This document shows positions 30,679 through 50,884 of a stretch of 64,000 nucleotides of DNA, one piece after another. The notes beneath the pieces were generated by a model, which had not been told where the DNA came from, searched no databases, and saw nothing but the letters and a program-made list of their open reading frames with translations. The position numbers and the translations under genes are program-made. The DNA comes from Verrucomicrobia bacterium S94 (GTDB lineage Bacteria > Verrucomicrobiota > Kiritimatiellia > Kiritimatiellales > Pontiellaceae), in assembly GCA_004299845.1 (NCBI GenBank), contig CP036201.1, forward strand, positions 930,001 through 994,000, read 5' to 3'. Numbering within the stretch: position 1 is the stretch's first letter; each line of letters begins with the position of its first letter.

Positions 30679-33138
30679 CTAAAGGATGCCGTCTACCGGA
30701 TTCCAGGCAATTTCAATGGGGTCGACTTTCCCGAGGATACCGGGGACATGCGGCGGTTTTTTCCAATGGTTTGAAATCAGTTCAATTTCTGCGGTTTTGA
30801 GTCCGTCGGCTTCCGCCCGAAGCACCGCTTTTTTGCCGGTCATCTGCACGATGGCCTGACTGAGTCCGTAGAAAGCGGAGCTTTCGGTGCTCTTCGGCGG
30901 TTCGTGGCTGGTGGGGTTGCCGTTGCCGGTTCCCAGAATCTTTGCGTCGCCTTCAACCGAGTACCGGATTTTATGGTCGGCGGTTGGAACAAAACGACCG
31001 TCGGTATCGATAATTTCGGCTTTTACCACGAAAGTGCCGTCGGACTCGGCTGTCAGGCGGATGGCTGCCGGGACGCCGACGGTTTCATTAGCGGTTCGAA
31101 GAATCTCCCGGCCCTCCGCACTGTATCCGATTGCTTCAAGTTTTCCGGGACGGTATTCCACGAACGTTTCGAAATAGCCGTTGGTTTCCACGCTTTTGCG
31201 TTCCAGTGTTTTTCCGTTGAGGATCAGTTCCACTTCCGCGCAGTTGGTATAGGCGCGGACTTTAATAGGCTGTCCCTCTTTACCCGCCCAGTTCCAGTGC
31301 GGGAAGAGGTGGAGCAGCGGTTCCGAATTCCACCAGGCTTTATAGTAGAAATAGGCGTCTTTCGGGAAGCCGCACAGATCCATCAGGCCGAACCGGGTGA
31401 CGGTTGCCGGCCAGTCGAAGGGGTAGGTTTCACCACGATAGTCGAAGCCGGTCCAGAGGAAGGTTGCGGCCAGGAAATCACGGCTGGCACACGCTTTCCA
31501 GGTTTTATCGATGGGGGATCCCCACGGAGTGAGGCCGTTGTTATACGCACTGGCTACACCTTTTAGGTGTTCGTTTTCCCAGCAGATTCCACCGTGGCCG
31601 AAGTCATTCAACTCAATCGGTTTTCCGTCATAGTATTCAATGTCGTAGAGTCCGCGGGTTGCAAATGAACCGCCGGTTTCGCTGCCGATGAGGGGCCAGT
31701 TCGGGTAGCGCTCGTGAAACTGGTCATAGCGCGTATCGTCTACTCCATGATCGGTAATGTTGTAGTTGGCGCCGAAGACATCGAGGTGGAAATTCTGGCT
31801 GTCATGGAATTTGGCAATGCTGAGCCAGTCGCAGTTCATGGAATAGACCGCCGGACGGGACGGATCGAGTTTATGGACCAGGTTCTGCATTTTCCGCAGC
31901 TGTTTCACGCCGATGTTGGTAGACTGTACCTTCATCTCTTCATTACCGAGCGACCACATGATGACGCAGGCATGGTTGCGGTCGCGCTTCATCAGATCCT
32001 CCAGCTGCTGGAGGAATTCAGGCGAAGAGCCGGTGAGGCGCGTTTCATCCATTACCATAATGCCGAGGCGGTCGCAGATGTCGAGCAGGGCCGGAGTGGG
32101 CGGGTTATGCGCACAACGCAACGCGTTGGCCCCCATTTTTTTCATCTGCAGCATGCGCCATTCCTGCAGTGCGTCGGGGATAGCTGTTCCGACGCCGGCG
32201 TGGTCCTGATGATTGCAGACTCCGCGGATTTTCAACGGTTCGCCATTGAGGAAAAAGCCTTTTTCCCCGTCAAAACGGATATCTTTCACGCCGAACGGGG
32301 TACGTATTTCATCAACGATTTCGCCATTGATGCTGATGCTGCTGATCAGGGTGTAAAGAACCGGGTTGTCGGGGCTCCATTTTTGGGGGTCGGAAAGTTC
32401 AAGTGTCTGGAATGCCGTTCGGGATTCCTCTGTTTCAACCGTGAGGGCGGTTTGATCGACCTGTTCTGCATGGTCCGAGGCGTTGATGATGGTGGACTGA
32501 ACGAAAACTTCTGCATCGGTTTCCAGATCGTTACGGACCGTGGTTTCAATGTTAACGCGGTTGTCTTTGGTATGCACAAAGATGCCGGAGTAGGGTACGT
32601 GCACCGGGTGGGTTTTAACCATGCGTACATCGCGGTAGATTCCGCCGCCTTCGTAGGACCAGAGTTCGGGCAGAGTGGCGTCGCAGCGAACCGCAATTAC
32701 ATTGTTTCTGCCGTAATTGAGCACTTCGGAGGCATCGAGTGAAAAGCTGGTGTAGCCGCTGAGGTGGCGCAGCATAAAGTGGCCGTTGATCCAGACGCTG
32801 GAATCGCGGAAAATACCGTCGAATTCAAAATGGATGCGGCAGCCTTCGTCTTCTTTCGGCACAAAGAAGGTTTTGCGGTACCAGGCGATACCTTTCTGAA
32901 TGGATCCGTGGCCGACTTCGGCATCGGGTGTGAAAGGATTTTCCTGCAGAAAATCGTGGGGCAGGTCGACGGTCTGCCAGTCGAGATCGTCATAGCCGAC
33001 TTCGGAAAGGCCGTGGTTGCCGGATTTGATCCAGGAAGGGTTTTCATAGAACCGTTCATGGATGGCCTGAAAGCCCTGCTTTTTTACATCCTGCTGGATA
33101 AAGCGCCAGCCGGGATTCATGGATAAAATTTCTCTCAT
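30679..33138 (-). CDS. GH2 beta-galactosidase-like enzyme, cytoplasmic
   Basis: The protein has 819 residues with GGAG before ATG 33138. It carries the family layout: an N-terminal sugar-binding jelly roll (residues 45-180) with LPHDFLQENPF and GIAWYRKTF, an immunoglobulin-like domain, the TIM barrel from about 290 (NGEPLKIRGVCNHQDHAGVG), then C-terminal beta-domains. The acid/base is E400 in MWSLGNEE and the nucleophile E487 in LIGSETGG. The barrel also has GANALRCAHNPPTP. No signal peptide is seen, so it acts inside the cell. With GH29 it would remove alternate residues of a galactan oligosaccharide. It may also be a beta-glucuronidase or mannosidase; specificity is not fixed by sequence. 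Confidence 0.88.
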   Translation of the reverse strand: MREILSMNPGWRFIQQDVKKQGFQAIHERFYENPSWIKSGNHGLSEVGYDDLDWQTVDLPHDFLQENPFTPDAEVGHGSIQKGIAWYRKTFFVPKEDEGCRIHFEFDGIFRDSSVWINGHFMLRHLSGYTSFSLDASEVLNYGRNNVIAVRCDATLPELWSYEGGGIYRDVRMVKTHPVHVPYSGIFVHTKDNRVNIETTVRNDLETDAEVFVQSTIINASDHAEQVDQTALTVETEESRTAFQTLELSDPQKWSPDNPVLYTLISSISINGEIVDEIRTPFGVKDIRFDGEKGFFLNGEPLKIRGVCNHQDHAGVGTAIPDALQEWRMLQMKKMGANALRCAHNPPTPALLDICDRLGIMVMDETRLTGSSPEFLQQLEDLMKRDRNHACVIMWSLGNEEMKVQSTNIGVKQLRKMQNLVHKLDPSRPAVYSMNCDWLSIAKFHDSQNFHLDVFGANYNITDHGVDDTRYDQFHERYPNWPLIGSETGGSFATRGLYDIEYYDGKPIELNDFGHGGICWENEHLKGVASAYNNGLTPWGSPIDKTWKACASRDFLAATFLWTGFDYRGETYPFDWPATVTRFGLMDLCGFPKDAYFYYKAWWNSEPLLHLFPHWNWAGKEGQPIKVRAYTNCAEVELILNGKTLERKSVETNGYFETFVEYRPGKLEAIGYSAEGREILRTANETVGVPAAIRLTAESDGTFVVKAEIIDTDGRFVPTADHKIRYSVEGDAKILGTGNGNPTSHEPPKSTESSAFYGLSQAIVQMTGKKAVLRAEADGLKTAEIELISNHWKKPPHVPGILGKVDPIEIAWNPVDGIL

Positions 33139-33321
33139 AGCTCTGCTCCAGTAAAAATCAGCGCGTTGTTAAACCACGAAGGGTCAATGGAACGCGAAAC
33201 TAAAAACATGTACGAATCTCAGATTTTGATCTGTATTTTCTGCCTTGGAGGCGCGGGGGACATATCGGTTTCTGTCATCCGTATACCGCGCTCTCCGGGG
33301 AATTAACAATCTTCAGTGTGC

Positions 33322-33358
33322 AAAAAGACCGGATAGGGTTTCCCCGTCCGGTCTTTTT
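33322..33358. terminator. rho-independent terminator
   Basis: AAAAAGACCGGA and TCCGGTCTTTTT form a strong stem with loop TAGGGTTTCCCCG. It lies 27 bases downstream of the stop of the propeller hydrolase gene at 33385 and ends that transcript. Confidence 0.85.
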
Positions 33359-33384
33359 GGTTTCCGGTATATTCCGAACTGCGG

Positions 33385-34410
33385 TCAGTCGACTTTCAGT
33401 ACGGCACCGGAGGAGGTGTTGTATTTTCCGCCGACCATAGCGAAGAAGACATAATCCGGTTTGCCGTCCTTCAGCAGTACCTGTGTGCGTTCAAAGCGGC
33501 CTTCGCGTTCGAGGCCGTTCGGCGGTTCCGGCAGATATTTCCGTCCTTCGTAGAACGCGACAGTCGGTTCGCCCCAGTTGATTCCGTCTTCAGATTCAAA
33601 CATCAGACCGTATTCGTGGTTCCAGTAGCCCATATCACGCATGATCATTTTAAATTTGCCGTCTTCGATCCAGATATAGGCATCTTCCGACTGTGCATTT
33701 TCACCGAGGTGGCTGAGGTCGATGATGGGGCCGTCGCCGACTTTTTCCCAGGGGCCTTCCAGTTTTGTGGCTTTGGCGAGGCCGTACTGTCGGTTGGTGT
33801 GGCGGCCGACATCCGCCGTCGCCACGCGGAGTCCGCCTTCAAGGTCTTTTTCCCAGTCAGTGGCGCGCCAGGATTTGTAATAGAGCCAGAGTTCGCCGTT
33901 CGGATGCTGGACGAAAGCCGGGTTGGTGGTGCAGACCGAGTTCCAGGCATTGGGGTCGGGATCGGGTTCGATCAGCGGTTTGTCTACGCGTTCCCACGGG
34001 CCGTAGAGGGAATCAGAGGTGGCCATGCCCACCCGTTTAGTGTAAACGGTGCCGTCCTGCGTACCCATGTAAAACAGGACATATTTGTCGCCGACTTTAT
34101 GGATGGTCGGATTGTGACAGGTCATAGCGTCCCACCAGTCGCCGCCGCGGCCCGTAACGGCCACATCGACGGTTTCAAATTCACTTTCCGGCGAATCGGC
34201 CACGGCATGGGCGATTTCGCAGCAGGTGATCCAGCCCTGATGAGCGGCTTCGTTTTTCCAGCGGCTGTAGAATACGTGTACTTTTCCGTCGTCGCCCCAG
34301 ATCGGGGAGCATCCCCAGACATTGTAATCCGGGTCTTCAAGAATGCGGCCGACAGGTTTCAGGCGCTTTTCAAAATCCGATGAAATCGGTTCGGTCTTAT
34401 TCAGTTTCAT
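33385..34410 (-). CDS. five-bladed propeller glycosidase-like protein (GH43/GH117-like), paralogue 1
   Basis: The protein has 341 residues, with GGAG before the ATG and no signal peptide. It starts with a conserved block, VGRILEDPDYNVWGCSPIWG, then HVFYSRWKNE, CEIAHAVADSPE, CHNPTIHKVGDKYVLFYMG, SEDAYIWIEDGKFKMIMRD and GKYNTSSGAVLKVD. These repeated strand patterns (xxYVLFYMG, LWLYYKSW) are those of beta-propeller hydrolases such as GH43 and GH117, and the conserved acidic residues in the blades could be catalytic. It shares about the same sequence with the two plus-strand genes at 37060 and 38203. The family could not be assigned exactly, and the substrate is unknown. Confidence 0.75.
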   Translation of the reverse strand: MKLNKTEPISSDFEKRLKPVGRILEDPDYNVWGCSPIWGDDGKVHVFYSRWKNEAAHQGWITCCEIAHAVADSPESEFETVDVAVTGRGGDWWDAMTCHNPTIHKVGDKYVLFYMGTQDGTVYTKRVGMATSDSLYGPWERVDKPLIEPDPDPNAWNSVCTTNPAFVQHPNGELWLYYKSWRATDWEKDLEGGLRVATADVGRHTNRQYGLAKATKLEGPWEKVGDGPIIDLSHLGENAQSEDAYIWIEDGKFKMIMRDMGYWNHEYGLMFESEDGINWGEPTVAFYEGRKYLPEPPNGLEREGRFERTQVLLKDGKPDYVFFAMVGGKYNTSSGAVLKVD

Positions 34411-34480
34411 TATTTTCTCTCCATATGCTTAAAATGGCTTCCCGGAGGCCGCTGTGCCGGTTCCGTTGATCAGCAGTCTG

Positions 34481-34495
34481 TTATGCTTAACATAA
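34481..34495. promoter_or_regulatory. inverted repeat TTATG-N5-CATAA
   Basis: TTATGCTTAACATAA has 5-base arms and lies 71 bases before the start of the minus-strand propeller gene. It resembles a shortened version of the 18-base operator nearby and may be a second site for the same regulator. Confidence 0.35.
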
Positions 34496-34544
34496 TGCTA
34501 AAAAAACTATCGACAAGTTGCGGCTCATCCTGCATAACCTCTAA

Positions 34545-34562
34545 TATGTTTACATTAACATA
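34545..34562. promoter_or_regulatory. operator-like inverted repeat TATGTT-N6-AACATA, second copy
   Basis: TATGTTTACATTAACATA differs at one position from the sequence at 23093-23110 and both are preceded by A. It lies in the divergent region between a propeller hydrolase (minus) and the GH94 gene (plus), 69 bases before the latter. Sharing between two carbohydrate promoters suggests a common regulator. Confidence 0.6.
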
Positions 34563-34630
34563 AGTGGTCAATATGGACAGGGGTTTGTTGTATTGTCCAG
34601 CGAATTTATAACGAATAATTGGGAACTTAG

Positions 34631-37057
34631 ATGAACGATAACAACGTGTATTCTTTCAATGACGAGGAAAAGTCAATCCGCATCAATCGCAGCGATCTTC
34701 CGACGCCATGGATCAACTACCTTTCAAACGGCCGACTGCATGCTTTTGTCTCACAGGCCGGGGGTGGTCTGGCGTGGTGGAAAAGTCCGATTACCTACCG
34801 GATGACGCATTACCGCTATCAGAATGTGCCGATGGACGGTCCTGGATTCTACACCTATGTGCGTGAAAAGGACGGCACCACCTGGTCGCCGACGTTCCGC
34901 CCGTGCGAAACTCCGCTCGATAACTGGTATGCCGAACATCACGCCGGCTGGTCGAAATTTGTCGGGACTAAAAACGGAGTGACGGCCACGCTGAAGCTGT
35001 TCTGTGCCATGGACACGGATGCGCTCTGTTATGATCTGGAAATTAAAAACGATTCCGGCGAAGAAAAGGAACTCGATCTCTTTGCTTATGCCGACCTCGC
35101 ACAGCTGGAGTGGACCACTGATCTGTTCTACGGCTATTACATTCAGAGTCAGGTGACGACATTCTATGATGAAGACATGGATACCATCATTTACCGGTAT
35201 CAGCATACGCCTCAGCCGTTTGTGGAGGACGTGCCGCTGATCTGGATGGCGGCTGACCGCAAAATGGCTTCCTGGTCCGGTGACCGCGAAAAATTCCTGG
35301 GCCCGTACCGCTGGGAGCAGAATCCGATCGGCGTTGAAAAAGGGCATTGCGGCAATGATACTATTGAGTGCGGGCATCCCTGCACAGCCGGCCATGTAAA
35401 GGTTACGGTTAAGCCGGGCGAAACCGAACGGGTGGTGTTCACGCTTGGTGTTGCTCCGGGCGGACTGATTAAGCACAAAGAAACGATGGCCAATATCAAA
35501 CGGGATCTGGAAACCTTCCGGTCTCTGGAGAAAATCGATGGCCAGTTCCGGGCGCTGGAAAACTGGTGGGAAAACCATCTGGGCAAATTTGAGTGTGAAA
35601 TTCCGAACAAGGATATTCAGCGTCAGATCAATATCTGGAGCCCGATCCAGACCGTGCATAACGGTCGCTATTCCCGTTCCACTTCCTGGCATGCTCCGGG
35701 ATACCGGGGATTCGGTTACCGCGATACAGCCACCGACATGATCGGAGTGGCGTACCGTGATCCGAAGTGGGCTACGGATATGTGCCTCTATCTGCTTTCT
35801 CAGCAGTTTGAAGATGGACACGCGCTGCATACCTGCTATCCGGAAGACGGGCCGGCGATGTCGCGCGGAAACTCTAAACATGCGGACGACCACTTGTGGA
35901 TGCCGATGGTGGTGTATGCGATTCTTTCGGAAACGGGCGATTACAGTCTGCTTGAAAAAGAAGTGCCGTGGCTTTCCGAGGAAGACAACTGGACCACATA
36001 CGGTTCTGCCACGGTCTGGGAACATCTGATGCGCGGAGTGGATTTCACGGAAAACAACCTTGGTGAAAAAGGATTTCCGCTGACGTTTGACGGAGACTGG
36101 AACGACATCATTCTGCGTTTCTCACGTGCCGGTAAAGGAGAATCGATTTTCTGCGGACAGCAGTATGTCATCATTCTGCGCCAGATGATCGAGATCGGAA
36201 AAGCGGCAGGGAAACCGCAGGAGGATCTTGACCGGCTGCAGGGCTGTCTTGACCGGATGGTGAAGAACCTTGAGGATCATGCGTGGGACGGTGAATACTG
36301 GCGGCGCGGCTATACCGATGAAGGTGATATTGTCGGCACCAAAAAGGCGGAATACGGTAAAATCTTTATCAATCCGCAGTCCTGGTCGGTCTGGGCCGGT
36401 GTGGGTTCCGAAGAACAGAACAACAGCGCCATGGACAATGCGATTAAGTATACCGCCACGGATTTCGGTCTGCGTCTGGTTTATCCGGGCTTCAAGACCT
36501 ATCCGCACGATCCTGATCCGTTCACCGGATACAATCCGGGCTGTGCGGAGAACGGCGCGGTTTTCTGTCAGGCCAACGGGTGGGTGATTATTGCGCTTTC
36601 CAAGCTGGGCCGTGCGGATGACGCCTGGAAAATTTTCGGCGATATGATTCCGCATACGGCGCTGAATAATATCGGTCTCGAACGCTACGAAGCCGAACCG
36701 TATGCTTACGTTTCCAACATTATTGGTCCGGAAAACAAGCGTCATGGCTGGGCGAATGTTACACAGGTCACCGGAACCGCGGCCTGGATGGATCTGGTTG
36801 GGACACAGTATCTGCTCGGTGTGCGCCCGGGGCTCCGGGGGCTGGAAATTGATCCGTGCATTCCTGCTGACTGGAAGTCTTATACCGTTACCCGCGAGTA
36901 TCGCGGAAGCACCTATAAGATTTCAGTAACCAATCCGGACGGTGTTGTGAAGGGTGTGAAGTCCGTGAAAGTAAACGGGGTGGAGATTGAAGGAAACATC
37001 ATTGACCCGAATACCGTGAGTGGGGACGTTGTCGTTGATGTTGTAATGGGGGGATAA
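34631..37057 (+). CDS. GH94 family glycoside phosphorylase
   Basis: Inverting phosphorylase that splits beta-linked disaccharides with phosphate to give a sugar 1-phosphate. The protein has 808 residues without signal peptide. The N-terminal beta-domain begins LPTPWINYLSNGRLHAFVSQ, a helical linker follows, and the barrel has SWHAPGYRGFGYRDTATD, DDHLWMPMVVY and the signature DGDWND with the likely catalytic acid at D492. The C-terminal part ends in a small beta-domain (YRGSTYKISVTNPDG). The usual members act on cellobiose, chitobiose or laminaribiose; this sequence is a distant relative and its sugar is unknown. The gene runs three bases ahead of a propeller hydrolase, so the two proteins probably act on the same oligosaccharide. 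Confidence 0.85.
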   Translation: MNDNNVYSFNDEEKSIRINRSDLPTPWINYLSNGRLHAFVSQAGGGLAWWKSPITYRMTHYRYQNVPMDGPGFYTYVREKDGTTWSPTFRPCETPLDNWYAEHHAGWSKFVGTKNGVTATLKLFCAMDTDALCYDLEIKNDSGEEKELDLFAYADLAQLEWTTDLFYGYYIQSQVTTFYDEDMDTIIYRYQHTPQPFVEDVPLIWMAADRKMASWSGDREKFLGPYRWEQNPIGVEKGHCGNDTIECGHPCTAGHVKVTVKPGETERVVFTLGVAPGGLIKHKETMANIKRDLETFRSLEKIDGQFRALENWWENHLGKFECEIPNKDIQRQINIWSPIQTVHNGRYSRSTSWHAPGYRGFGYRDTATDMIGVAYRDPKWATDMCLYLLSQQFEDGHALHTCYPEDGPAMSRGNSKHADDHLWMPMVVYAILSETGDYSLLEKEVPWLSEEDNWTTYGSATVWEHLMRGVDFTENNLGEKGFPLTFDGDWNDIILRFSRAGKGESIFCGQQYVIILRQMIEIGKAAGKPQEDLDRLQGCLDRMVKNLEDHAWDGEYWRRGYTDEGDIVGTKKAEYGKIFINPQSWSVWAGVGSEEQNNSAMDNAIKYTATDFGLRLVYPGFKTYPHDPDPFTGYNPGCAENGAVFCQANGWVIIALSKLGRADDAWKIFGDMIPHTALNNIGLERYEAEPYAYVSNIIGPENKRHGWANVTQVTGTAAWMDLVGTQYLLGVRPGLRGLEIDPCIPADWKSYTVTREYRGSTYKISVTNPDGVVKGVKSVKVNGVEIEGNIIDPNTVSGDVVVDVVMGG

Positions 37058-37059
37058 AC

Positions 37060-38103
37060 ATGACAAGCGCTACGGCGAACAAAATCAATACAAAACCGGA
37101 AGTTGAATCGGAATTCTGCAGGAATCTGACCGGCGTCGGACGGATTCTTGAAGATCCGGACTATAATGTCTGGGGCTGTTCTCCGATCTACGGTCCGGAA
37201 GGGAAGGTTCATGTCTTCTATTCCCGCTGGAAAAACGAGGCGGATCATGAAGGCTGGTTGACGTGTTGCGAAATTGCGCATGCCATCGCAGATGATCCTG
37301 CCGGTCCATATACAACGGTCGATGTCGCTCTGGCACCGCGTGGCGGCGACTGGTGGGATGCAGGAAGCTGCCATAACCCGACGATTCATAAAGTCGGCGA
37401 TAAATATGTACTGTTCTATCTCGGTGTTTCGGACGGAACAGTCTACACCAAACGGGTGGGCATGGCTACGGCGGATTCGCTGGATGGACCGTGGGAGCGC
37501 TCGCCGGAGCCGATTATTCAACCGGACCCGGATCCCAAAGCCTGGAATTCGATGTGCACGACGAATCCGGCTTTTCTGCAGGTATCCGATGATGAGCTGC
37601 GTCTTTACTATAAAACCTGGTGCATTGCGGACTGGGAGCGGGATATCGAACTGGCGAATGAACTGGGCTCATGGACCGGAGAGAACACGAACCGTCAGTA
37701 TGGTCTGACGATCGCGAAGTCGCTCGACGGTCCCTGGGTCAAACAGGGTGACGGTCCGATGATCAATCTGAAATATGTCGGTGAAAATGCGCAGTCGGAA
37801 GATGCCTATATCTGGATGGAGGACGGGCTGATCAAAATGATCATGCGTGACATGGGGTACTGGAACCATGAATACGGACTCTATTTTGAATCTGAGGATG
37901 GCGTGAACTGGTCGGACCCGCAGATTGCATACCGTAATTCTCATGAATATTTTGATGAAGAGGCCAACGGGCTTGATCGTGAAGGGCGCTTTGAGCGGCC
38001 ACAGCTGCTGATGGGTGAAGATGGTCATCCGGAATATCTGTTCTGTGCTTTTCGCGGCGGGAAGTACAACACCTCTTCCGGTGTTGTGCTGAAAATCGGA
38101 TAA
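37060..38103 (+). CDS. five-bladed propeller glycosidase-like protein, paralogue 2
   Basis: The protein has 347 residues, starting two bases after the GH94 stop codon with GGGGGG upstream. Conserved blocks match paralogue 1: VGRILEDPDYNVWGCSPIYG, HVFYSRWKNEADHEGWLTCC, CHNPTIHKVGDKYVLFYLG, TKRVGMATADSLDGPWER, NAQSEDAYIWMEDGLIKMIM and GKYNTSSGVVLKIG. An extra Ser/Glu-rich stretch near residues 195-215 is not in paralogue 3. No signal peptide, so it acts in the cytoplasm. Tight coupling to a phosphorylase gene suggests that it trims the other residue of the oligosaccharide before or after phosphorolysis (inference). Confidence 0.78.
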   Translation: MTSATANKINTKPEVESEFCRNLTGVGRILEDPDYNVWGCSPIYGPEGKVHVFYSRWKNEADHEGWLTCCEIAHAIADDPAGPYTTVDVALAPRGGDWWDAGSCHNPTIHKVGDKYVLFYLGVSDGTVYTKRVGMATADSLDGPWERSPEPIIQPDPDPKAWNSMCTTNPAFLQVSDDELRLYYKTWCIADWERDIELANELGSWTGENTNRQYGLTIAKSLDGPWVKQGDGPMINLKYVGENAQSEDAYIWMEDGLIKMIMRDMGYWNHEYGLYFESEDGVNWSDPQIAYRNSHEYFDEEANGLDREGRFERPQLLMGEDGHPEYLFCAFRGGKYNTSSGVVLKIG

Positions 38104-38149
38104 GCGTTACGGGGGTCAGTAGGTTATCTTTTTTAAAAGATACGTTTTG

Positions 38150-38181
38150 CCGGTCCCGCTGTTTGGCGGGGCTGTTTTTTT
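38150..38181 (+). terminator. rho-independent terminator or attenuator
   Basis: CCCGC and GCGGG pair around loop TGTTTG and are followed by a run of T (38174-38181). Together with a weaker ATCTTTTTTAAAAGAT hairpin just before, it ends the GH94 operon. The third propeller gene starts 22 bases later, so this may reduce rather than abolish read-through. Confidence 0.7.
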
Positions 38182-38202
38182 AAGGTACAGGAGAGAGCTG
38201 AT

Positions 38203-39261
38203 ATGTCTGATGGAGTGTTGTTTAACCGGGAGGAGAAGTATTCGGAATTTTCGAAAAAGCTGAAGCCGGTTGGGCGGATTCTTGAAGATCCGGATTACAA
38301 TGTCTGGTGCTGTTCGCCGATCTATGACGAAGAGGGGCGTGTTCACGTTTTCTATTCGAAATGGCTCAATGCCTACGATCACCTCGGCTGGGTTGCGGCC
38401 TGCGAAGTAGGCCATGCGGTGGCTGATTCTCCGGAAGGACCATATACCGATTTGGGAACGGTGCTGAAGGGAAAGCGGGATGATTCCTGGGATTCGTGGT
38501 CGATTCATAATCCGACAGTCTACAAAGTGGATGGTCGGTATGTCATGTTTTACATGGGATCCAGCGGAGCCGGTCTCGGTGTGACGCTGGAAGAGATTAT
38601 GGAAATGGACGGCGATGAATATGCTCCGTATTTTCAGGCGCTGGTTGAGACCAAACGTGTGGGTATGGCAGTGGCGGACAGTCTTGACGGCCCGTGGGAA
38701 CGGGTCGGTGACCGGCCGATGGTTGATGTCGGTGCGCCCGGTTCCTGGGATGATATGGTGACAAGCAACCCGGCTTTTGTGCAGCATGAAGACGGGCGCT
38801 ACTGGCTTTATTATAAAGGCTGGGACTATGCGACACTGCCAACCGGAGGTAACCGGCGTTATGGCGTGGCAATGGCCGAGCATCTGACCGGGCCGTATAT
38901 CAAATATGAAGGAAATCCTGTTGTTGATTATTCATCGATTGATATTCGGGTGCAGTGCGAGGACGGCTTTGTCTGGCGGGAGGACGGCCGGTATCACATG
39001 ATCCTGCGTGATATGGGATTCTATAATCACGAATACGGGCTGATTATTCATTCCGACGATGGAATCAACTGGAGTGAGCCGGAGATTGCCTACAGAGAGG
39101 CTGCGCACTATTTTGATGAAGCGCCCAACGGGCTTGATCGTGAGGGGCGCTTTGAACGCCCGCAGCTGCTGATGAAAGACGGTAAACCCGAATATCTTTT
39201 CTGTGCTTTCCGTGGCGGGAAATATAACACTTCTTCAGCGGTAGTGCTGAAAGTCAACTGA
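38203..39261 (+). CDS. five-bladed propeller glycosidase-like protein, paralogue 3
   Basis: The protein has 352 residues with AGGAG before ATG 38203. Again the blocks VGRILEDPDYNVWCCSPIYD, HVFYSKWLNAYDHLGWVAAC, IHNPTVYKVDGRYVMFYMG, TKRVGMAVADSLDGPWER, CEDGFVWREDGRYHMILRD and GKYNTSSAVVLKVN. It has its own insertion of about 25 residues in blade two (SSGAGLGVTLEEIMEMDGDE) that the other two lack, so its substrate cleft differs. No signal peptide. Sequence divergence among the three copies suggests old duplications with different linkages or sulfation states as substrates (inference). Confidence 0.78.
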   Translation: MSDGVLFNREEKYSEFSKKLKPVGRILEDPDYNVWCCSPIYDEEGRVHVFYSKWLNAYDHLGWVAACEVGHAVADSPEGPYTDLGTVLKGKRDDSWDSWSIHNPTVYKVDGRYVMFYMGSSGAGLGVTLEEIMEMDGDEYAPYFQALVETKRVGMAVADSLDGPWERVGDRPMVDVGAPGSWDDMVTSNPAFVQHEDGRYWLYYKGWDYATLPTGGNRRYGVAMAEHLTGPYIKYEGNPVVDYSSIDIRVQCEDGFVWREDGRYHMILRDMGFYNHEYGLIIHSDDGINWSEPEIAYREAAHYFDEAPNGLDREGRFERPQLLMKDGKPEYLFCAFRGGKYNTSSAVVLKVN

Positions 39262-39323: not shown

Positions 39324-42116
39324 TTAAATCCGGGTGGTAAGTGTCTGAAGCTTCTGTTTAATGCGCTGTTGTTCATTGCTGCCGATGGTGGATAACCGGA
39401 GCAGAGGCAGACCGCTTTTTTTCAGTATGGAGTTCTTCAGCGTGTCCCGGTACGACTGTCGGGTTTCTTTTCGGTGATAGGCATATCCATCCACTTCAAT
39501 AACAAGTATCGGACGCTTATCAATTTCGCTGTAAATCAGGAAATCACATCGTGTCCAGGGATGCCGGGCATAAGCGGCTTCTTCTTCGGTCAGGAAGTCG
39601 GTGTTTTTCAACAGGGTTGATAACGGGACCTGAAAGGCCACCCGATGCCCCCGGAATGAATTTTGGAGGAGTTCCTGAAGTTCGTGATAAATGAGGTTTT
39701 CTGAATCATACGTGGATATTCGTCTTCTGCTGCGCAGCCGGGCCATTCTGGCTTCAGCGTAATCCCGGTAGAGAAGGTCGAAGACAGAACGGACTCTGCC
39801 GGGGATTACTTCGCCGTTATTGTACCGGATGTAGCGAATGAAATCGGCGATATTTCCTTCGTCTTCGGCGATCTTTTTCGAGGTGACCAGCCGGAGTTTC
39901 TGCTGTGCGCGTGAAATAGCCACATTCAGCAGGTTGGGATCATCAATGAATGCATTAGTCTGGTTTGCAACCGTTGTAAGGATCATGGCCGGTTTTTCCC
40001 GTCCCTGATATTTGTGGACGGTATCAATTTCGATGCCGGATGAGCTGATTGCCGTACGGGTCAGTTCTGTCTGTGCCCGGTAAGGTGAAACGATGCCGAT
40101 ATCTTCCGGTGGAATTCCTTTGAGCTCAGGAAGAACATGGGTGGCGATTTCATCGATCTGTCGCTGGTTCACTGTGCCGCGTGCGTGATTGCCTTCAACG
40201 GTTACATAGACTTTTAAAACATCCTCTTCGCCCCGATCCTCCGTCATGATGATTAATTCGTTGTTATAGAATTTCTGGTTGCAGAACTGGATGATTCTGG
40301 GGTGGCAGCGGTAGTGTTCCCTCAGGAGGGTTGCAGGAATGCCCGGAAAAGCTTTCAGAACAGAAGATAACAGGCTGTGTCTCTCAAAGCGGGCGTAGTC
40401 GGGGACTGCATAGGATCTTCCGATTTCCTCCGCACGTTTTCTGTTTTCATTACTCAGAACATGGGGAAGCTGCATGAGATCTCCGACCACTACGAGCCGC
40501 TCGGCGCAGCTCATCGTCAGTGCACCGTTGAGCAGATCCACCTGACTTGCTTCATCCACAATAACGCAGTTAAACCGGTAGCCGTTTCTGACGGATGTGA
40601 TCACAGAGAAGGTTGTGCTCATAACGACCGGATATTCTTTTAGAAATTTTTCGGGTGCTTTCCATAGATCGTCCGCCTTGAAAATTTTACGGTCGCGGTT
40701 TTGGTATTTTCGGGAAAGGTGGTGTTTCAGCAATTGCATTGAAATGGTGGAGAGTCGATTCAGTTTTTCCTCGAAATGAAAGTCGGCAAGATCCTGCTGA
40801 AGCGAATTTATCCGGTGTTCCAGTTCAGCTGTTTTTCTCAGATAATATGCTTTCTGCAACAATGTAATGCGGTCTTTCGGCGCTACATCGAAAAATGCGC
40901 GGGCGGCTCTGCCCAGTTGGAAATAAAGACTTATTTTCTCAAAAAAGCGTATGGGTGTGCGATTGCGTTTGTATTTTTCTGATAGTGGGTTGGTCTGTTT
41001 AATGTTCTGTTCGCAGGCGATCCAGTGTTTCATCAACCGGTCTGACGAGGTTTTCATCAGTACGGATACTTTTTCCTGCATGGCGGTTTGATGGGACCAC
41101 TCGTTTTCATACTGTTCAAAGTGCTTTAATTCCAATACAAGGGCATCACGCTGACGGATCGCATCGGCCAGTTTATTCTTTTTATCGAAGGCTTCATCCA
41201 AAGTACTGTTTAAGGTGCGGATTTCTTTCCGGATGGTGGAGATTTCATCCTGTTTCAGGTTCGGAAGTGATATGGGTGTGTGGCGCTGGTTGTTTATAAA
41301 TTCCTGCTTATTACAGGAACTGCCGAGAAAGGCGCCGATAAAATCGAGGCCTGCATGCTGCAGTTTTTCCAGCACATTTGCTGTTGCGGCATTGTTGTTG
41401 GAAACAATGGCCACGCTTTTTTCCTGCATCAGCAGATTGGCAATCAGGTTCAGAATGGTCTGCGTTTTTCCTGTTCCCGGAGGACCCTGGATTACGGACA
41501 CCGGATTTTTAAAGGCGTTTTGTACCGCCAGTTTCTGGCTCCGGTTACATCCGAACGGGAAAATAAGTCCGGCGGCATCCTCTTCAGAAAATATTTCATT
41601 CTGAGGAGATTTCCCTTTAAGAAAACGGGCCAGAATAGTGGTTTTATTCACGACGTTGAGGTGCTGAAATTTCCGGGCCAGTAATGCCTCTCCCTCTTCG
41701 GTTTTTAATGTGCTTTCAGCGGCAAGTTCCCGATAATAGCAGAGCAGGTCTGTATTTAAGCCGGCACTATCGGTTATCGGGCTGAGTGAGATGTCGCTAA
41801 AACGGAAGATCCTGTTTCGGTTATCGCCTCGAAACACTCTGGCCCAGTCTCCAAAACGCAGGATTTCGCTGACATCGTAGATTAGATGGCCTTTGATGGA
41901 GACGCGTTTGTTTTTGATCGGAATTATTTGGGCTGCAGTGAAATATTCGACATTCTGCGCCGCATACCGGTACGATTTACCGCTACGGTAGGTTACCTGA
42001 ATTCGGTCGTCCATACGGGAAATCCGAATAACCTGCTCGGTCTGGTCTTCCCCTTTAATAAGAATGAGATGTTTTTTCAGATGAAACGGGCTTTGTGTGC
42101 GGTCTGTGTGATTCAT
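39324..42116 (-). CDS. SF1 (UPF1-like) helicase with C-terminal DUF2726-type nuclease domain
   Basis: The protein has 930 residues. The helicase core has Walker A GPPGTGKT at 211-218, Walker B CVIVDEASQVDLL, VVGDLMQLPHVLS, LREHYRCHPRIIQFC, a motif V-like region IDTVHKYQGREKP and NVAISRAQQKLRLV. Residues 280-480 are a helical insertion. The last 120 residues (CDFLIYSEIDKRPILVIEVD, then GYAYHRKETRQSYRDTLK) have the REase-like pattern D, then E-x-D, of DUF2726. Single proteins joining an SF1 helicase to a nuclease domain (Mokosh type II, Hhe) are known antiphage defences, so a defence role is plausible, but a repair role is equally open. It is alone, with no methylase or partner gene. Confidence 0.8.
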   Translation of the reverse strand: MNHTDRTQSPFHLKKHLILIKGEDQTEQVIRISRMDDRIQVTYRSGKSYRYAAQNVEYFTAAQIIPIKNKRVSIKGHLIYDVSEILRFGDWARVFRGDNRNRIFRFSDISLSPITDSAGLNTDLLCYYRELAAESTLKTEEGEALLARKFQHLNVVNKTTILARFLKGKSPQNEIFSEEDAAGLIFPFGCNRSQKLAVQNAFKNPVSVIQGPPGTGKTQTILNLIANLLMQEKSVAIVSNNNAATANVLEKLQHAGLDFIGAFLGSSCNKQEFINNQRHTPISLPNLKQDEISTIRKEIRTLNSTLDEAFDKKNKLADAIRQRDALVLELKHFEQYENEWSHQTAMQEKVSVLMKTSSDRLMKHWIACEQNIKQTNPLSEKYKRNRTPIRFFEKISLYFQLGRAARAFFDVAPKDRITLLQKAYYLRKTAELEHRINSLQQDLADFHFEEKLNRLSTISMQLLKHHLSRKYQNRDRKIFKADDLWKAPEKFLKEYPVVMSTTFSVITSVRNGYRFNCVIVDEASQVDLLNGALTMSCAERLVVVGDLMQLPHVLSNENRKRAEEIGRSYAVPDYARFERHSLLSSVLKAFPGIPATLLREHYRCHPRIIQFCNQKFYNNELIIMTEDRGEEDVLKVYVTVEGNHARGTVNQRQIDEIATHVLPELKGIPPEDIGIVSPYRAQTELTRTAISSSGIEIDTVHKYQGREKPAMILTTVANQTNAFIDDPNLLNVAISRAQQKLRLVTSKKIAEDEGNIADFIRYIRYNNGEVIPGRVRSVFDLLYRDYAEARMARLRSRRRISTYDSENLIYHELQELLQNSFRGHRVAFQVPLSTLLKNTDFLTEEEAAYARHPWTRCDFLIYSEIDKRPILVIEVDGYAYHRKETRQSYRDTLKNSILKKSGLPLLRLSTIGSNEQQRIKQKLQTLTTRI

Positions 42117-42267
42117 TATTTATGTTGGCTGATGGTCAGGATAATGCCGGGGTTTGGATATGATTTATATTTCGGATAAAAATATGGGCCTTTCCCGCTT
42201 ATTGGAAGTTTTGTGCAATGAATTTTTCCGTATAGTCACAACTGAATAAAATAAGGAATCGGGGTTT

Positions 42268-45200
42268 ATGAGGGCGCAGCATGGTTTGGGGTTGGTTGTT
42301 TTTCTGATTACTGCTGCGGTTGCGGGAGCCGTTGATATTGCCGAACTTCAGCGCAGGGCGGAGGCCGGTGATATTCAGGCGCAGGGGGAGCTGGCGCATT
42401 GTTATCGTTCGGGCGACGGTGTTGAAACCAACTTTAGTCTCGCGTTTGACTGGGCGGCGCAGTCCGCCGAAGGCGGAAACCGGGACGGTCAGTATGAGCT
42501 GGGATACTGTTATCGCAACGGGTACGGCACGGAGACCAATTTTACGGAATGTCTGAAGTGGTATCATCTGGCCGCGGAGCAGGGGCATTCGAATGCCATG
42601 TACGGCATTGGATTGCGGTACCGTCATGGACAGGGCACAGAAACGAATCATTCCGAAGCTATAAAATGGTTTGAAAAAGCGGCGGCGTATGAGCATCCGA
42701 AAGCCATTTACCGGCTGGCGCTTTATTATGAAGAGGGCAGGTGGGTTGAGACCAATACGGTGCTTTGCATGGAGATGCTGCATCGGTCGGCGGAGCTGGG
42801 ATATGAAGCTGCTTATGCGGCACTGGCCTATCGGTATGGAGTTGGCCAAAGTGTTGAAAGGAATTTGAAAAAAGCGTTCGAGTGGTATCTGAAAGCGGCC
42901 GAAGCCGGGCGGAAAATTTCGCAGTATAATCTGGCGGGTTATTACCGGCAGGGCAAAGGCACGGAAACCAATTTGACCGAAGCTGTACGCTGGTATCGGG
43001 CGTCGGCGGAACAGGGGTATGCGAAAGCGCAGTATGCCCTGGGTTTGCGCTATGCAAAGGGAGAAGGGGTGGAGCGCAATGAGGAGGAGGCGTTTGCATG
43101 GTATCTGAAGGCGGCCTCGAACGGTTATGATCGTGCCCAGAATGTGGTAGGGTATCGTTATTTTCATGGGGAAGGAACCACCTCGAATTGTACAGAGGGC
43201 GTTCGCTGGTACCGTCAGGCGGCAGAACAGGGCTATGCCCCGGCACAGCACAATCTGGGATTGAAATATCTTTATGGCGAAGGGGTGCCGACCAACCATA
43301 CCGAAGCGGTCTTCTGGTTCCGCAAAGCGGCGGAGCAGGGAAATAGCAAGGCGCAATACAGTCTCGCACGGCGGTATCAGCTGGGCGAGGGGGTTGAGGT
43401 TGATGACGTGCTTGCTTCCGAATGGTTTCTGAAATCGGCTGAACAGGGGGATGCGAAAGCGCAGTTTTCCATAGGATGGTGTTATGAAGAGGGGGTGGGT
43501 GTGGAGAGCAACCGCCTGCAGGCGGCGGTGTGGTATGAAAAAGCGGCGGAACAGCAGCATACTTCGGCGCAGTACAACCTGGCGCGGATGTACGAATTCG
43601 GTCTTGGCGTTGAAGCGGATGCCGAGCGGGCATATGCGCTCTATCTGAAGGCGGCAGAAAACGGAGATGCATGGGCTCAGCGTAAGATGGGTTGGTTTAA
43701 ACAGTCCGGAGAGATGGGCGAAAAGAATGAGGAGGAGGCTTTCCGCTGGTATTCGCTTGCGGCAGAGCAGGGATATACTCCGGCATTCAATGATTTGGGC
43801 TGGTGTTATGAATCCGGTATGGGAACCGAAGCCAATCCGGCGCTGGCGTTTGAATGGTATACCCGTTCGGCTGAAGCCGGGCATGCATTAGGTATGCGCA
43901 ATCTGGCGGTTTGTTATGAGGGGGGAACCGGTACTGAAACCAATCCGGAACAGGCGGTGAAATGGTATCTGAAGTCGGCTGAGCTCGGTGAGCCGCAGGC
44001 GCAGTTTGAAATGGGCTGGCGTTATGATATTGGTGCCGGCGTGCCTCTGGATAAGGAAAAAGCGGCCGCATTCTATCGGGCAGCGGCGGCTCAGGGGCAT
44101 ATGATGGCTCACCATAATCTGGGGGTTTGTTATGAGCTCGGCGAGGGGGTGGAAATTGATTATGCGGAATCGCTCAAACACTATCTTTATGCCGCCGGCG
44201 AGGGATACGTGAATTCGCAGTACAATGCGGCGCGCTTCTATAAACTGGGGCATGGAACAGTACAGAATCCGGATCAGTCTTTCCGTTGGTATGCGGCGGC
44301 GGCATCGAATGGACTTGCGGAAGCGCAGTATCATCTTGCGGAGTGTTATGAGGATGGATTCGGTACGGAAACCAATACTGCGCTGGCACTGGAATGGTAC
44401 CGGATTTCGGCGGAGAACGGCTATTCCGCAGCGCATCATGCTATGGGCTATCGCTATGCCAACGGGATTCATGTGGCGACCGATTATGCGAAAGCCATGC
44501 AGTGGTATTTGCAGGCGGTGGAGCTGGGGAATCCGTATTCGATGAATAATATCGGCAATCTTTATGCAGACGGACAGGGTGTGGAACAGAGTTATGAACG
44601 ATCGGTGGAATGGTATCTGAAAGCTGCTCGGGGCGGGAATTCGGTTGCGGCGTATAATCTGGGCATTCGTTATGAAAACGGTCAGGGTGTTGAGAGTAAC
44701 GATGCGGTCGCGGTGCAGTGGTATGCTGTGTCGGCTTCGAATGGATACCTGTGGGCGCAGAATGAACTGGGCGACCGCTATTACTACGGGAAGGGATTTC
44801 CGGAAAACAATGAGCTGGCGTTCCTGTGGTATTCACGTGCCGCGGAACAGGGGTCGGCTGACGCATTGTATCAGCTTGGGCTGCTGTATTCCCGGGGGCA
44901 TGGGGTTGAGGAGAATGATCATAAAGCGTTTGATTGCTTTGCACAGGCTTCTGAAATGGGGCTGCTTAAAGCGCGTTATCAGATGGGCGTGAGTTATTAC
45001 TGGGGTTACGGTGTGCCACGGAACCGGAGCGTTTCAGCCACAATTTTCCGAGAGTGTGCCGAAGCAGGTCTGGCGGATGGGCAGAACGATCTGGGGTGGG
45101 CTTATGCCCATGGGTATGGTGTTGAGCAGGATGTTGAAGAAGCGGTGAGGTGGTATCAGCTAGCTGTTAAACAGGGCCATGTCACGGCTGGGAATAATCT

Positions 45201-45828
45201 GGGGGTGGCGTATTATCGCGGCGCGGGCGTTTCCGCCGATCGGGGAAAAGCGTTTGAGTTGTTTCAGTTTTCTGCCGGGCAGGGCGATGCGGATGCGATG
45301 GGAAATCTTGCGGTCTGTTATGAGGAGGGCTGCGGGATTGAAAAGGATATGGAGCTGGCGCTGGAATGGCATCGGAAAGCGGCGGATGCCGGGAATGAAA
45401 GATCACAGCGGAAGCTGGCTCTTTTTTATGAAGCCGGTGGACTGCTGCCGAATGATCAGGAACGTGCGGCTTTTTGGATGGAGCGTGCGGCGGAAAACGG
45501 GAATGCAGACGCGATGTACCGCACCGGACTGAATTATGAGTTGGGGCGCGGGGTGGAAGTGTCGGGACGGATTGCGGTACGTTGGTATCGCAGGGCGGCG
45601 AAGCAGGGTGATCACGACGGCCAGTACCGGCTTGCTTTGGCGTTTAGAAATGGTCTGGGTGATCTGCGTCCGAATGACCGGCAGGCGGCGGTTTATTTTC
45701 ATAAGTCGGCCGTACAGGGCAACAGAAAGGCGCAGGCGGCACTTGCGGAATGTTATTTTGCAGGACGCGGGGTTTCCAGAAGCTGGAAAACGGCGTGGGG
45801 CTGGTACCGGTTGTCTAAACGGGATTGA
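42268..45828 (+). CDS. giant exported Sel1-repeat protein
   Basis: The protein has 1186 residues, starting with a signal peptide MRAQHGLGLVVFLITAAVAG. The whole mature part consists of about 32 Sel1-like repeats of 36 residues. Typical units read A-x-x-W-Y-x-x-A-A-E-x-G-x-x-x-A-Q-x-x-L-G followed by Y-x-x-G-x-G-V-E-x-N. Such solenoids bind proteins or peptides; they have no catalytic residues. Repeat units are not identical, so the array is old. There is no anchor or lipobox, so it is periplasmic or secreted. It is followed five bases later by a second Sel1 protein that is a lipoprotein, and the two probably work as a pair. Confidence 0.88.
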   Translation: MRAQHGLGLVVFLITAAVAGAVDIAELQRRAEAGDIQAQGELAHCYRSGDGVETNFSLAFDWAAQSAEGGNRDGQYELGYCYRNGYGTETNFTECLKWYHLAAEQGHSNAMYGIGLRYRHGQGTETNHSEAIKWFEKAAAYEHPKAIYRLALYYEEGRWVETNTVLCMEMLHRSAELGYEAAYAALAYRYGVGQSVERNLKKAFEWYLKAAEAGRKISQYNLAGYYRQGKGTETNLTEAVRWYRASAEQGYAKAQYALGLRYAKGEGVERNEEEAFAWYLKAASNGYDRAQNVVGYRYFHGEGTTSNCTEGVRWYRQAAEQGYAPAQHNLGLKYLYGEGVPTNHTEAVFWFRKAAEQGNSKAQYSLARRYQLGEGVEVDDVLASEWFLKSAEQGDAKAQFSIGWCYEEGVGVESNRLQAAVWYEKAAEQQHTSAQYNLARMYEFGLGVEADAERAYALYLKAAENGDAWAQRKMGWFKQSGEMGEKNEEEAFRWYSLAAEQGYTPAFNDLGWCYESGMGTEANPALAFEWYTRSAEAGHALGMRNLAVCYEGGTGTETNPEQAVKWYLKSAELGEPQAQFEMGWRYDIGAGVPLDKEKAAAFYRAAAAQGHMMAHHNLGVCYELGEGVEIDYAESLKHYLYAAGEGYVNSQYNAARFYKLGHGTVQNPDQSFRWYAAAASNGLAEAQYHLAECYEDGFGTETNTALALEWYRISAENGYSAAHHAMGYRYANGIHVATDYAKAMQWYLQAVELGNPYSMNNIGNLYADGQGVEQSYERSVEWYLKAARGGNSVAAYNLGIRYENGQGVESNDAVAVQWYAVSASNGYLWAQNELGDRYYYGKGFPENNELAFLWYSRAAEQGSADALYQLGLLYSRGHGVEENDHKAFDCFAQASEMGLLKARYQMGVSYYWGYGVPRNRSVSATIFRECAEAGLADGQNDLGWAYAHGYGVEQDVEEAVRWYQLAVKQGHVTAGNNLGVAYYRGAGVSADRGKAFELFQFSAGQGDADAMGNLAVCYEEGCGIEKDMELALEWHRKAADAGNERSQRKLALFYEAGGLLPNDQERAAFWMERAAENGNADAMYRTGLNYELGRGVEVSGRIAVRWYRRAAKQGDHDGQYRLALAFRNGLGDLRPNDRQAAVYFHKSAVQGNRKAQAALAECYFAGRGVSRSWKTAWGWYRLSKRD

Positions 45829-45833
45829 AATGG

Positions 45834-48581
45834 ATGAGACGGGTTTGCCTATTGCTGATACTGGCCGCGGTTCTTTCCGGCTGTGTAACGTCGGAACGTC
45901 CCGAGGTGAAGGCGTTGCGTGAAAGGGCGGCGGAGGGCGACGGCGAAGCTCTCTGTACGTTGGGTTACCGGCATGCGTATGGTCTGGATGTTGATCAGGA
46001 CTATGAAAAAGCACTGGAGTATTTCCTGATGTCGGCGGAAGAGGGATATGAAGGAGCGTGGTTTTATCTGGGGGTCCTGTATGAATATGGCTGGGGTGTT
46101 GAACAGGATCCTGCCGCGGCTCTTTCGTATTACCGGTATGGAGCTCTGCTGGAAGAGGGGTGGGCTGAGGGTAAACTGGGATGGTTTTACTTCAATGGAC
46201 TGGTGGTGAATGAAGATGTAGAGCGCGGTGCCGGTCTCTATCTGCGTTCTGCCCGCCAGGGTGTTCCGTTTGCCCAGTTCAATATCGGAATCTGCTATGA
46301 ATCCGGAATTGGAATTGAGCAGGATGATTTTGAAGCGGTTGAATGGTTCCGTCGTTCCGCGGAGAACGGAGTGGTGGATGCGCAGTATAAAATGGGCTAT
46401 TACCTCAGCCACGGCATCGGCACGGTTCAATATGGAGCGCGTGCGGCCGAATGGTATCACCTGGCGGCGTCGCAGGGACATGCGAATGCCCAGAATAATC
46501 TTGGAGCGATGTACTACAATGGCGATCTGATTAACTGCGATCTGGATGCGGCATTTTTCTGGTACTCAATGTCCGCTTCGAATGGAAATCCGGTTGCCTG
46601 TTTTAATCTGGGAGTAATGTATGAAAATGGGGAGCTGGGAGAGACCAATCTCCAGAAGTCGGCGGACTTTTTTCTGCAGTCGGCGGAAGCGGGCTATGCC
46701 AATGCACAGTATCATGTGGCAGAAAACTTTTTCTACGGACGAGGAGGCTTTCCTGAAGATGAGGCTCTTGCGGTGGAGTGGTATGCCCGGGGAGAGGAAC
46801 AGGGCGATCTGAATGCAATATACAGTCTGGCCTGGTGCTGTTCCCGGGGACGAGGGATCGAAATGGATGAAGCGCGGGCGTATACGTTGTTTAAACAGGC
46901 GGCCGAAATGGGCAGTCCGCAGGGAATGTATGAGCTGGCTGAATGTTATAACCGGGGCTATGGCATTGAGCCGGACAGACAGAAAGCCGTGGAGTATTTT
47001 CGGGCGGCAGCGAGTAATGGGGTGGCCGAAGCGCAGAACGACCTGGGGTTTGCGCTGAAAATGGGGCTTGGGACCGAAGTGGATTTTGAGGAGGCGGTTC
47101 TCTGGTACCGGCGCGCGGCGGAACAGGGGTATGCGCTGGCTCAGAACAATCTGGGGGTCTGTTATTTCGAGGGACTCGGCGTTGAGCAGGATAAAGAAAA
47201 AGCCGTAGAACTTTTCCGCCGGTCTGCGGAGGGGGGCTGCGAAGATGGTTTCAACAATATGGGCCTGAGTTTCCGGAATGGGTATGGCGTTGAGACCAAT
47301 GAACAGGCGGCCGTTGAGTGGTATGTTCGAGGGGTTAATGCCGGCTATGCCGGTTCTGCCTATAATCTGGCAGAGTTTTTTTCGGAAGAAGACCGTGGTG
47401 TCTACAGTCCGGAACAGGCGTTTGAATATTATCTCATGGCGGCGAAACGCGGGCATGTTGAAGCCATGAATAAGGTGGGGTATCGCTACCAGTATGGAAT
47501 CGGTGTCGGAAAAAATCCGGAAGCTGCTTTCCGGTGGTACCTCAAAGCGGCGGAAAACGGATTTGTGGTGGCTCAGCGCAATCTGGCAATCTGCTACCGC
47601 AACGGAACGGGAACGGAAATCGATCTGAAGAAAGCGGCGGAGTGGTATGAGAAAGCCGCACTCAACGGCAGTGTAAAGGCACAGCATACGGTTGCGCTGA
47701 ACTACCGCTATGGTCGTGGAGTTGAAACCAATCAGACCGAAGCGGTGCGCTGGTACCGGATGGCGGCGGAGAACGGGCATGCGCCATCGCAGTTCAGTCT
47801 TGGACTTCGGTATTATAATGGCGAAGGGGTTGAAAAAGATGAGGTTCAGGCGGCCGCCTGGATTCTGAAAGCGGCGGAACAGGGACATGCCGCATCGCAG
47901 AATGCCATGGGCTATCGGTACTATTACGGTCGAGGCGTGGAAAAGAATTATGCGCAGGCGTTTCGTTGGTATCTGGCGGCGGCAGAACAGGGAAATGATT
48001 CGGCGCAGTATTATGTCGGGCGCTGCTATCGCTTCGGACGGGGTGTTGAAACGAATCTGGTTAAGGCGGTGGAATGGTATCGAAAGTCAGCGGAACAGGG
48101 GTATCACCGGGCACAGAATACATTGGGCTATCGGTATAAAAACGGTGAAGGGGTGGAGGCCGATCCGGTGGAGGCGGTGCGCTGGTTCCGGCTGGCGGCA
48201 GAAGACGGGTATCATCATGCGCAGGACAGTCTGGGTGAATGCTATTACAATGGCGAGGGGGTGGAACGGGATTTTACGCAAGCCTTTGAGTGGTTTTTCC
48301 GTGCGGCGGAGCAGGGCAATGCCTATTCAATGAACTGGATCGGAAAAATGTATCTCAACGGGGAGGGTGTGCCGGCCGATGACGCCGAAGCGGTCCGCTG
48401 GTTTTGGAAATCGGCCGAGGAGGGGAACTGCGAGGGGCAGTTTAATCTGGCGCGATGCTACTTCGACGGCTGTGGAGTTGAGAGTGACTCCGTTATTGCG
48501 CTGGAGTGGATGCGGAAGTCGGCAGAACAGGACTATGAACCGGCACAGCAGTATCTGCGGATATTGAAAAATACGGAGTAA
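45834..48581 (+). CDS. giant Sel1-repeat lipoprotein
   Basis: The protein has 915 residues from ATG 45834; an in-frame TTG at 45825 overlaps the upstream stop. The N-terminus MRRVCLLLILAAVLSGC has a lipobox (LSGC), so the mature protein is lipid-anchored. The rest is about 25 Sel1 repeats of 36 residues, with the same consensus as its neighbour. Some repeats have short insertions, for example SEEDRGVYSPEQAFEYYL. It is close to the first gene, five bases away, and certainly co-transcribed. Membrane-anchored plus soluble repeat proteins in one operon suggest a periplasmic or surface protein scaffold (inference). Confidence 0.88.
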   Translation: MRRVCLLLILAAVLSGCVTSERPEVKALRERAAEGDGEALCTLGYRHAYGLDVDQDYEKALEYFLMSAEEGYEGAWFYLGVLYEYGWGVEQDPAAALSYYRYGALLEEGWAEGKLGWFYFNGLVVNEDVERGAGLYLRSARQGVPFAQFNIGICYESGIGIEQDDFEAVEWFRRSAENGVVDAQYKMGYYLSHGIGTVQYGARAAEWYHLAASQGHANAQNNLGAMYYNGDLINCDLDAAFFWYSMSASNGNPVACFNLGVMYENGELGETNLQKSADFFLQSAEAGYANAQYHVAENFFYGRGGFPEDEALAVEWYARGEEQGDLNAIYSLAWCCSRGRGIEMDEARAYTLFKQAAEMGSPQGMYELAECYNRGYGIEPDRQKAVEYFRAAASNGVAEAQNDLGFALKMGLGTEVDFEEAVLWYRRAAEQGYALAQNNLGVCYFEGLGVEQDKEKAVELFRRSAEGGCEDGFNNMGLSFRNGYGVETNEQAAVEWYVRGVNAGYAGSAYNLAEFFSEEDRGVYSPEQAFEYYLMAAKRGHVEAMNKVGYRYQYGIGVGKNPEAAFRWYLKAAENGFVVAQRNLAICYRNGTGTEIDLKKAAEWYEKAALNGSVKAQHTVALNYRYGRGVETNQTEAVRWYRMAAENGHAPSQFSLGLRYYNGEGVEKDEVQAAAWILKAAEQGHAASQNAMGYRYYYGRGVEKNYAQAFRWYLAAAEQGNDSAQYYVGRCYRFGRGVETNLVKAVEWYRKSAEQGYHRAQNTLGYRYKNGEGVEADPVEAVRWFRLAAEDGYHHAQDSLGECYYNGEGVERDFTQAFEWFFRAAEQGNAYSMNWIGKMYLNGEGVPADDAEAVRWFWKSAEEGNCEGQFNLARCYFDGCGVESDSVIALEWMRKSAEQDYEPAQQYLRILKNTE

Positions 48582-48646: not shown

Positions 48647-50884
<2,238 letters not shown>

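Follow-up and report, generated by a model that had tools for sequence, protein, structure and literature searches.

In a 64,000-nucleotide stretch of the Verrucomicrobia bacterium S94 genome (hereinafter, the window), two genes, sel1A and sel1B, form a tight pair encoding two paralogous, intact giant Sel1 solenoids with export signals, one soluble and the other carrying a lipobox. On the evidence of gene order in the genus, the pair is encoded at an ancestral locus beside the isocitrate dehydrogenase gene. The products are tentatively regarded as a periplasmic adaptor pair, that is, an accessory envelope scaffold that would act through a concave groove formed by helix 1 of the repeats.

Gene pair, repeat arrays and predicted fold

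The S94 genome is a single contig of 4.1 Mb, in which Sel1 matches were confined to this pair and one more open frame of 331 residues. The sel1A gene (42268..45828, plus strand), starting with ATG, encodes an exported Sel1-repeat protein of 1186 aa with 32 repeats (PF08238, E-value = 1.8e-250), and sel1B (45834..48581, plus strand) encodes a Sel1-repeat lipoprotein of 915 aa with 24 repeats (PF08238, E-value = 5.9e-197). Both ORFs are intact, and neither frameshifts nor stops were found over the 6.3 kb of the two genes. The preferred start of sel1B is the ATG at 45834, which yields the 915 aa product and leaves exactly five bases (45829-45833) between the genes, the spacing that had been proposed; the alternative start, TTG at 45825, would overlap the sel1A stop. 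A possible ribosome-binding site, AAGGAA (42253..42258, plus strand), suggested by its consensus only, is located 9 bases before the sel1A ATG, and no Rfam match to an RNA element was found near the genes.

Export was judged by eye from the translated sequences. The N-terminus of Sel1A, MRAQHGLGLVVFLITAAVAGA-VD, corresponds to an ordinary signal peptide without a lipobox (residues 1-21; 42268..42330, plus strand), with likely cleavage between AGA and VD. The N-terminus of Sel1B, MRRVCLLLILAAVLSG-C17 (45834..45884, plus strand), has the features of a bacterial lipoprotein, namely, a signal peptide closing in a lipobox (LSGC, residues 14-17) with the invariant cysteine, C17. The original prediction of an exported pair in an operon-like layout, with a lipobox in the second protein only, agrees with these readings.

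The Pfam family Sel1 (PF08238) was the only strong match, with 801 bits for Sel1A and 632 bits for Sel1B at a cut-off of 30.7, and the 56 tandem units of about 36 residues, scoring above the curated cut-off, place both proteins in the Sel1-like family. Splitting by the profile gave 32 and 24 full units, respectively, plus capping half-repeats, so that the earlier figure of nearly 60 repeats of 36 residues is fair. The Sel1A array (42376..45825, plus strand) consists of 32 units of 36 residues and a terminal cap, GRGVSRSWKTAWGWYRLSKRD, common to orthologues of two other species; its periodicity, interrupted by a lone one-residue insertion, extends across more than 1100 residues. The Sel1B array (45945..48578, plus strand) consists of 24 units of 36 residues, including an irregular 37-residue repeat, which is the ninth unit (the N-terminal cap being the first) and is kept in the orthologue. 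The identity between repeats within a protein averaged 34%, with maxima of 56-61%. Cysteine was found at position 9 of helix 1 in 9 of the 32 Sel1A repeats and 8 of the 24 Sel1B repeats, mostly without a second cysteine in the repeat, forming a single-cysteine ladder that is odd for exported proteins.

Both proteins were modelled by AlphaFold2 as uniformly helical, continuous alpha-solenoids (mean pLDDT 87 for Sel1A and 91 for Sel1B), and the predicted regular helix pairs correspond to the two-helix solenoid of solved Sel1 structures. The pTM values were low (0.41 and 0.48, respectively), so the overall path of the superhelix is unreliable, and one unit of Sel1A (approximately residues 646-664) was modelled poorly. 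The best Foldseek matches of the Sel1B model were Sel1 proteins; LceB was superimposed with an rmsd of 1.8 Å over 337 columns (TM-score 0.90 by target length).

Relatives in the genus and history of the repeats

In the genus sample (28 genomes, many of them fragmentary), an A-type protein was found in three genomes, namely, S94, G005 and G003 (in the latter as a fragment cut by the contig end), and a B-type protein likewise in three, S94, G005 and G017. The neighbouring monomeric NADP-dependent isocitrate dehydrogenase gene (48689..50884, plus strand; TIGR00178, 1280 bits), present in 22 of the 28 genomes, served as the synteny anchor. An A/B-type pair lies upstream of the same gene in G005 in an order swapped relative to S94: the gene of the lipoprotein L5 (12 repeats, LLTGC) precedes that of the soluble protein A5 (33 repeats), and the two overlap by a 4-base ATGA. 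Thus, close coupling outlasted the rearrangement, and the pairing of a lipoprotein and a soluble protein, kept at the same locus, is probably functional. The lone B-type protein of G017, B17 (917 aa, 24 repeats), is encoded at another locus, has an ordinary signal peptide without a lipobox and has no A-type neighbour; consequently, neither the anchor nor the pairing is universal. No conserved third gene was found alongside the pair. A functional tie to isocitrate dehydrogenase was not supported, since in another species an opposite-strand polymerase gene lies in between, and in most of the genus the dehydrogenase stays without the pair.

In the closest relative, G027 (isocitrate dehydrogenase 90% identical to that of S94), synteny extends from the sulfatases via the GH130-like genes to isocitrate dehydrogenase, with the helicase, Sel1A and Sel1B missing. 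A remnant of 56 bp (L066 14113-14168) corresponding to the 3' end of sel1B (48526..48581, plus strand) was retained in the intergenic stretch there, followed by the shared isocitrate dehydrogenase leader; its local score was 60, whereas none of about 1000 other window pieces of 141 bp scored above 32. It follows that the common ancestor had at least Sel1B, which G027 lost by deletion, and an insertion of Sel1B in S94 as the cause of the difference was rejected on account of the same 56 bp. With such a clean deletion in the nearest relative, a view of the pair as indispensable fails.

The helicase of the missing block (SF1, AAA_11/AAA_12, with a C-terminal DUF2726; 39324..42116, minus strand) is divergent to sel1A and probably not part of the system. 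A joint defence or mobile module would be consistent with the absence of the helicase, Sel1A and Sel1B as one block and with the resemblance of the helicase to the MkoA/MkoC helicases of candidate defence systems. This explanation is weakened by synteny, no such helicase having been found beside the orthologous Sel1 genes of two other species, and is considered highly improbable given that the Sel1 proteins bear export signals, that the helicase is on the opposite strand and that the Sel1 match to PtuA is a short repeat match only.

For the repeat-by-repeat comparison, inter-repeat scores were double-centred to cancel the influence of repeats close to the consensus, and the diagonals were assessed against permutations. 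The diagonal score was 200.8 for Sel1B vs. B17 (null 38.6 ± 9.6) and 126.4 for Sel1A vs. A5 (null 35.3 ± 8.1). In the former alignment, 24 of 25 units (the cap counted) were paired in order, a single gain and a single loss being required, and every Sel1B repeat except one corresponds, in order, to a repeat of another species at an identity of about 52%; in the latter, 31 of 33 units were paired in order, with two losses and three gains. L5 pairs with Sel1B at both ends, about nine internal units being absent. The question raised earlier, whether the two genes arose by duplication, was addressed by comparing Sel1A with Sel1B, which revealed one significant register, A16-32 with B1-17 (0 of 1000 permutations). 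The same register recurred for A5 vs. Sel1B (p = 0.008) and, with the A-type protein A3, vs. Sel1B (p = 0.004) and vs. B17 (p = 0.002); for Sel1A vs. B17 and A5 vs. B17 it was present but not significant. A second register, the offset-14 match of A1-10 with B15-24, was only suggestive. The register-specific match and the ordered repeats of the orthologues indicate, as far as sequence comparison goes, that sel1A and sel1B are old paralogues and that the order of repeats in each lineage has been maintained since the species diverged (protein divergence of about 50%).

The same data bear on the possibility that the arrays are neutral, that is, long Sel1 frames growing and shrinking without a specific function. 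The original prediction had named great copy-number differences or frameshifts among close strains as signs of such turnover. These signs are present in part: the pair is deleted in the closest relative, one orthologous lipoprotein has 12 repeats vs. 24, and occurrence across the genus is patchy. However, no frameshifts interrupt the two S94 genes, and the indels are few, in frame and of whole repeats, which indicates slow turnover plus gene loss. The uninterrupted 6.3 kb, the conservation of the irregular unit and the tendency of repeats to pair with orthologues over neighbours (the nearest neighbour was found in A5 for 15 of the 32 Sel1A repeats and in B orthologues for 13 of the 24 Sel1B repeats) make neutrality distinctly unlikely. 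Fresh neutral expansion was rejected as the main account in view of the ordered pairing with orthologues, and the proposed long retention of the repeats is supported by the Sel1B counterparts described above.

Known Sel1 systems and genomic setting

Strong Sel1 matches were found in 99 of 288 genomes of the phylum sample, about 17 of which had open frames measuring 1000-1724 aa; the long frames are partly non-Sel1, those of 1515 aa and 1641 aa having long other parts (a 1641-aa protein of G265, from the same class, has 21 Sel1 repeats). L099 (2523-9364) contains a run of three genes for exported Sel1 proteins (17, 13 and 23 repeats), of which two have a lipobox-like FSAC, and L098 contains another run of three (24, 14 and 24 repeats). 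The L099 tandem is similar to the S94 pair in combining co-directional long Sel1 genes with a mixture of lipoprotein-like and ordinary signal peptides, but it belongs to a different class, the likeness being that of gene arrangement. The presumed rarity of such giant Sel1 proteins is therefore not sustained, as the phylum repeatedly shows frames of 1000-1700 aa as well as tandem genes for exported Sel1 proteins. The characterised relatives named in the literature have 7-21 repeats (PMC10868440); an array of 32 repeats is long relative to the literature but not relative to the phylum. A literature search for Sel1 proteins in Kiritimatiellota or Akkermansia found no paper. It was also observed that in L041 (8315-13240) and L080 (7060-10350), a serine/threonine kinase-like N-terminus (LGGGGFGTVYLA and LLGAGGMGAVYLA, respectively) is fused to 14-21 Sel1 repeats.

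The solved Sel1 proteins, namely, that of Oxalobacter (6ok3), EsiB/c5321 (4bwr) and LceB (8sxq), share with the S94 proteins the 36-residue two-helix unit, the 7-residue loop and the solenoid, and signal peptides are common in this group as well; the S94 pair differs in the number of repeats (32 + 24 vs. 7-21), in the pairing of the genes and in the lipobox of one product. Another known system is EnhC of Legionella pneumophila, which is exported to the periplasm, has many Sel1 repeats and impairs the soluble lytic transglycosylase Slt (PMC7154730, PMC4766238), and the S94 pair might, following this precedent, regulate peptidoglycan cutting. The SLT catalytic domain (PF01464) had no match in the single-contig S94 genome, whereas the same search was positive in 8 of 14 control genomes, so a strict EnhC-Slt mechanism, judged by the SLT domain only, would have no target; we consider such a role improbable.

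Partial matches to the NCBIfam models AlgK, MotX, ExoR and MerG, all of which have Sel1/TPR-like repeats, were rejected as repeat cross-matches, since neither protein length nor gene neighbourhood is compatible with them. For MerG (NF033786), Sel1A scored 378 at a cut-off of 350, as a sum over 14 separate stretches of repeats matched to a model of 217 positions, and Sel1B scored 321, below the cut-off; the Sel1A score is interpreted as an artefact of summing over repeats. This model (phenylmercury resistance) may cause automatic mislabelling of such Sel1 proteins. The proteins also lack the regular cysteine pair per repeat of the cysteine-rich Hcp Sel1 proteins, at least two cysteines being present in only 2 of the 32 Sel1A repeats and 3 of the 24 Sel1B repeats. 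N-glycosylation of the recurring E-T-N-x-T/S repeat motif was also rejected: no STT3/PglB-type transferase was found (among the controls, only archaea were positive), and the orthologues do not retain the motif.

Upstream in the window, a cluster (20962-39261) containing a sodium:solute symporter, two sulfatases, an alpha-L-fucosidase and GH2, GH43/GH130-like and GH94 phosphorylase-like genes suggests use of a sulfated, fucose-rich glycan. Its polysaccharide-degradation genes remain in G027 without the Sel1 pair, so no link of the pair to them is shown. This setting of polysaccharide-degrading rather than virulence genes speaks against surface exposure or release of the pair for contact with other cells or a host, as proposed for EsiB, LpnE and Msf, and so does the conserved repeat order, which lacks antigen-like rapid variation. 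Although signal-peptide-bearing Sel1 proteins have a part in the host contact of several pathogens (PMC4792463, PMC10868440), and the best PDB-sequence matches of Sel1B were the Oxalobacter Sel1 protein and EsiB (c5321), this alternative appears rather unlikely.

Conservation of helix 1 and the putative role

Conservation was measured as the excess of agreement between orthologous over non-orthologous repeats at positions varying between repeats, with one orthologue pair per gene. The excess in helix 1 was 0.43 for Sel1B (bootstrap 95% range 0.33-0.52) and 0.30 for Sel1A (0.21-0.40), in helix 2 it was 0.19 and 0.18, and in the loops 0.23 and 0.16, respectively; the bootstrap ranges of helix 1 and the rest are separate for Sel1B and overlapping for Sel1A. 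In the structure of LceB, a solved Sel1 protein, the concave side is made up of helix 1 (PMC10868440), and, taken together, these data point to a groove with a fixed partner. It should be noted that some helix-1 positions also pack against neighbours and that buried helix-2 positions likewise show an excess; the helix-1 excess could partly reflect packing rather than binding.

From the export signals read in the sequence, the predicted fold, the pairing, the orthology and the conservation of helix 1, we infer the location, partner binding and joint action of the tentatively favoured adaptor pair as follows. Sel1B would be lipid-anchored on a periplasmic membrane leaflet, most likely that of the outer membrane, and Sel1A would be its free periplasmic partner. 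The concave groove, to which each repeat contributes helix 1, may grip one or more fixed envelope partners, either proteins or cell-wall or glycan material, and the convex face and loops would drift freely. The pair would thereby be a useful yet dispensable envelope scaffold, subject to slow whole-repeat indels and occasional loss of both genes. A bolder version, in which the two proteins constitute a mega-solenoid, lipid-anchored in one of its halves, that spans or organises the Kiritimatiellia periplasm as a dedicated envelope scaffold unlike any characterised Sel1 protein, seems improbable.

The pair alone leaves the general view of Sel1 proteins unchanged. Long exported Sel1 proteins are nevertheless abundant in a phylum for which the literature search returned no paper on them, and the S94 genes offer a clean case: they are paralogues whose repeat homology is defined, a sister species has an empty site that still carries a remnant, and the pairing is retained in swapped order. 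The pair thus represents a natural test of binding by a giant Sel1 solenoid and of the long-term register of repeat arrays.
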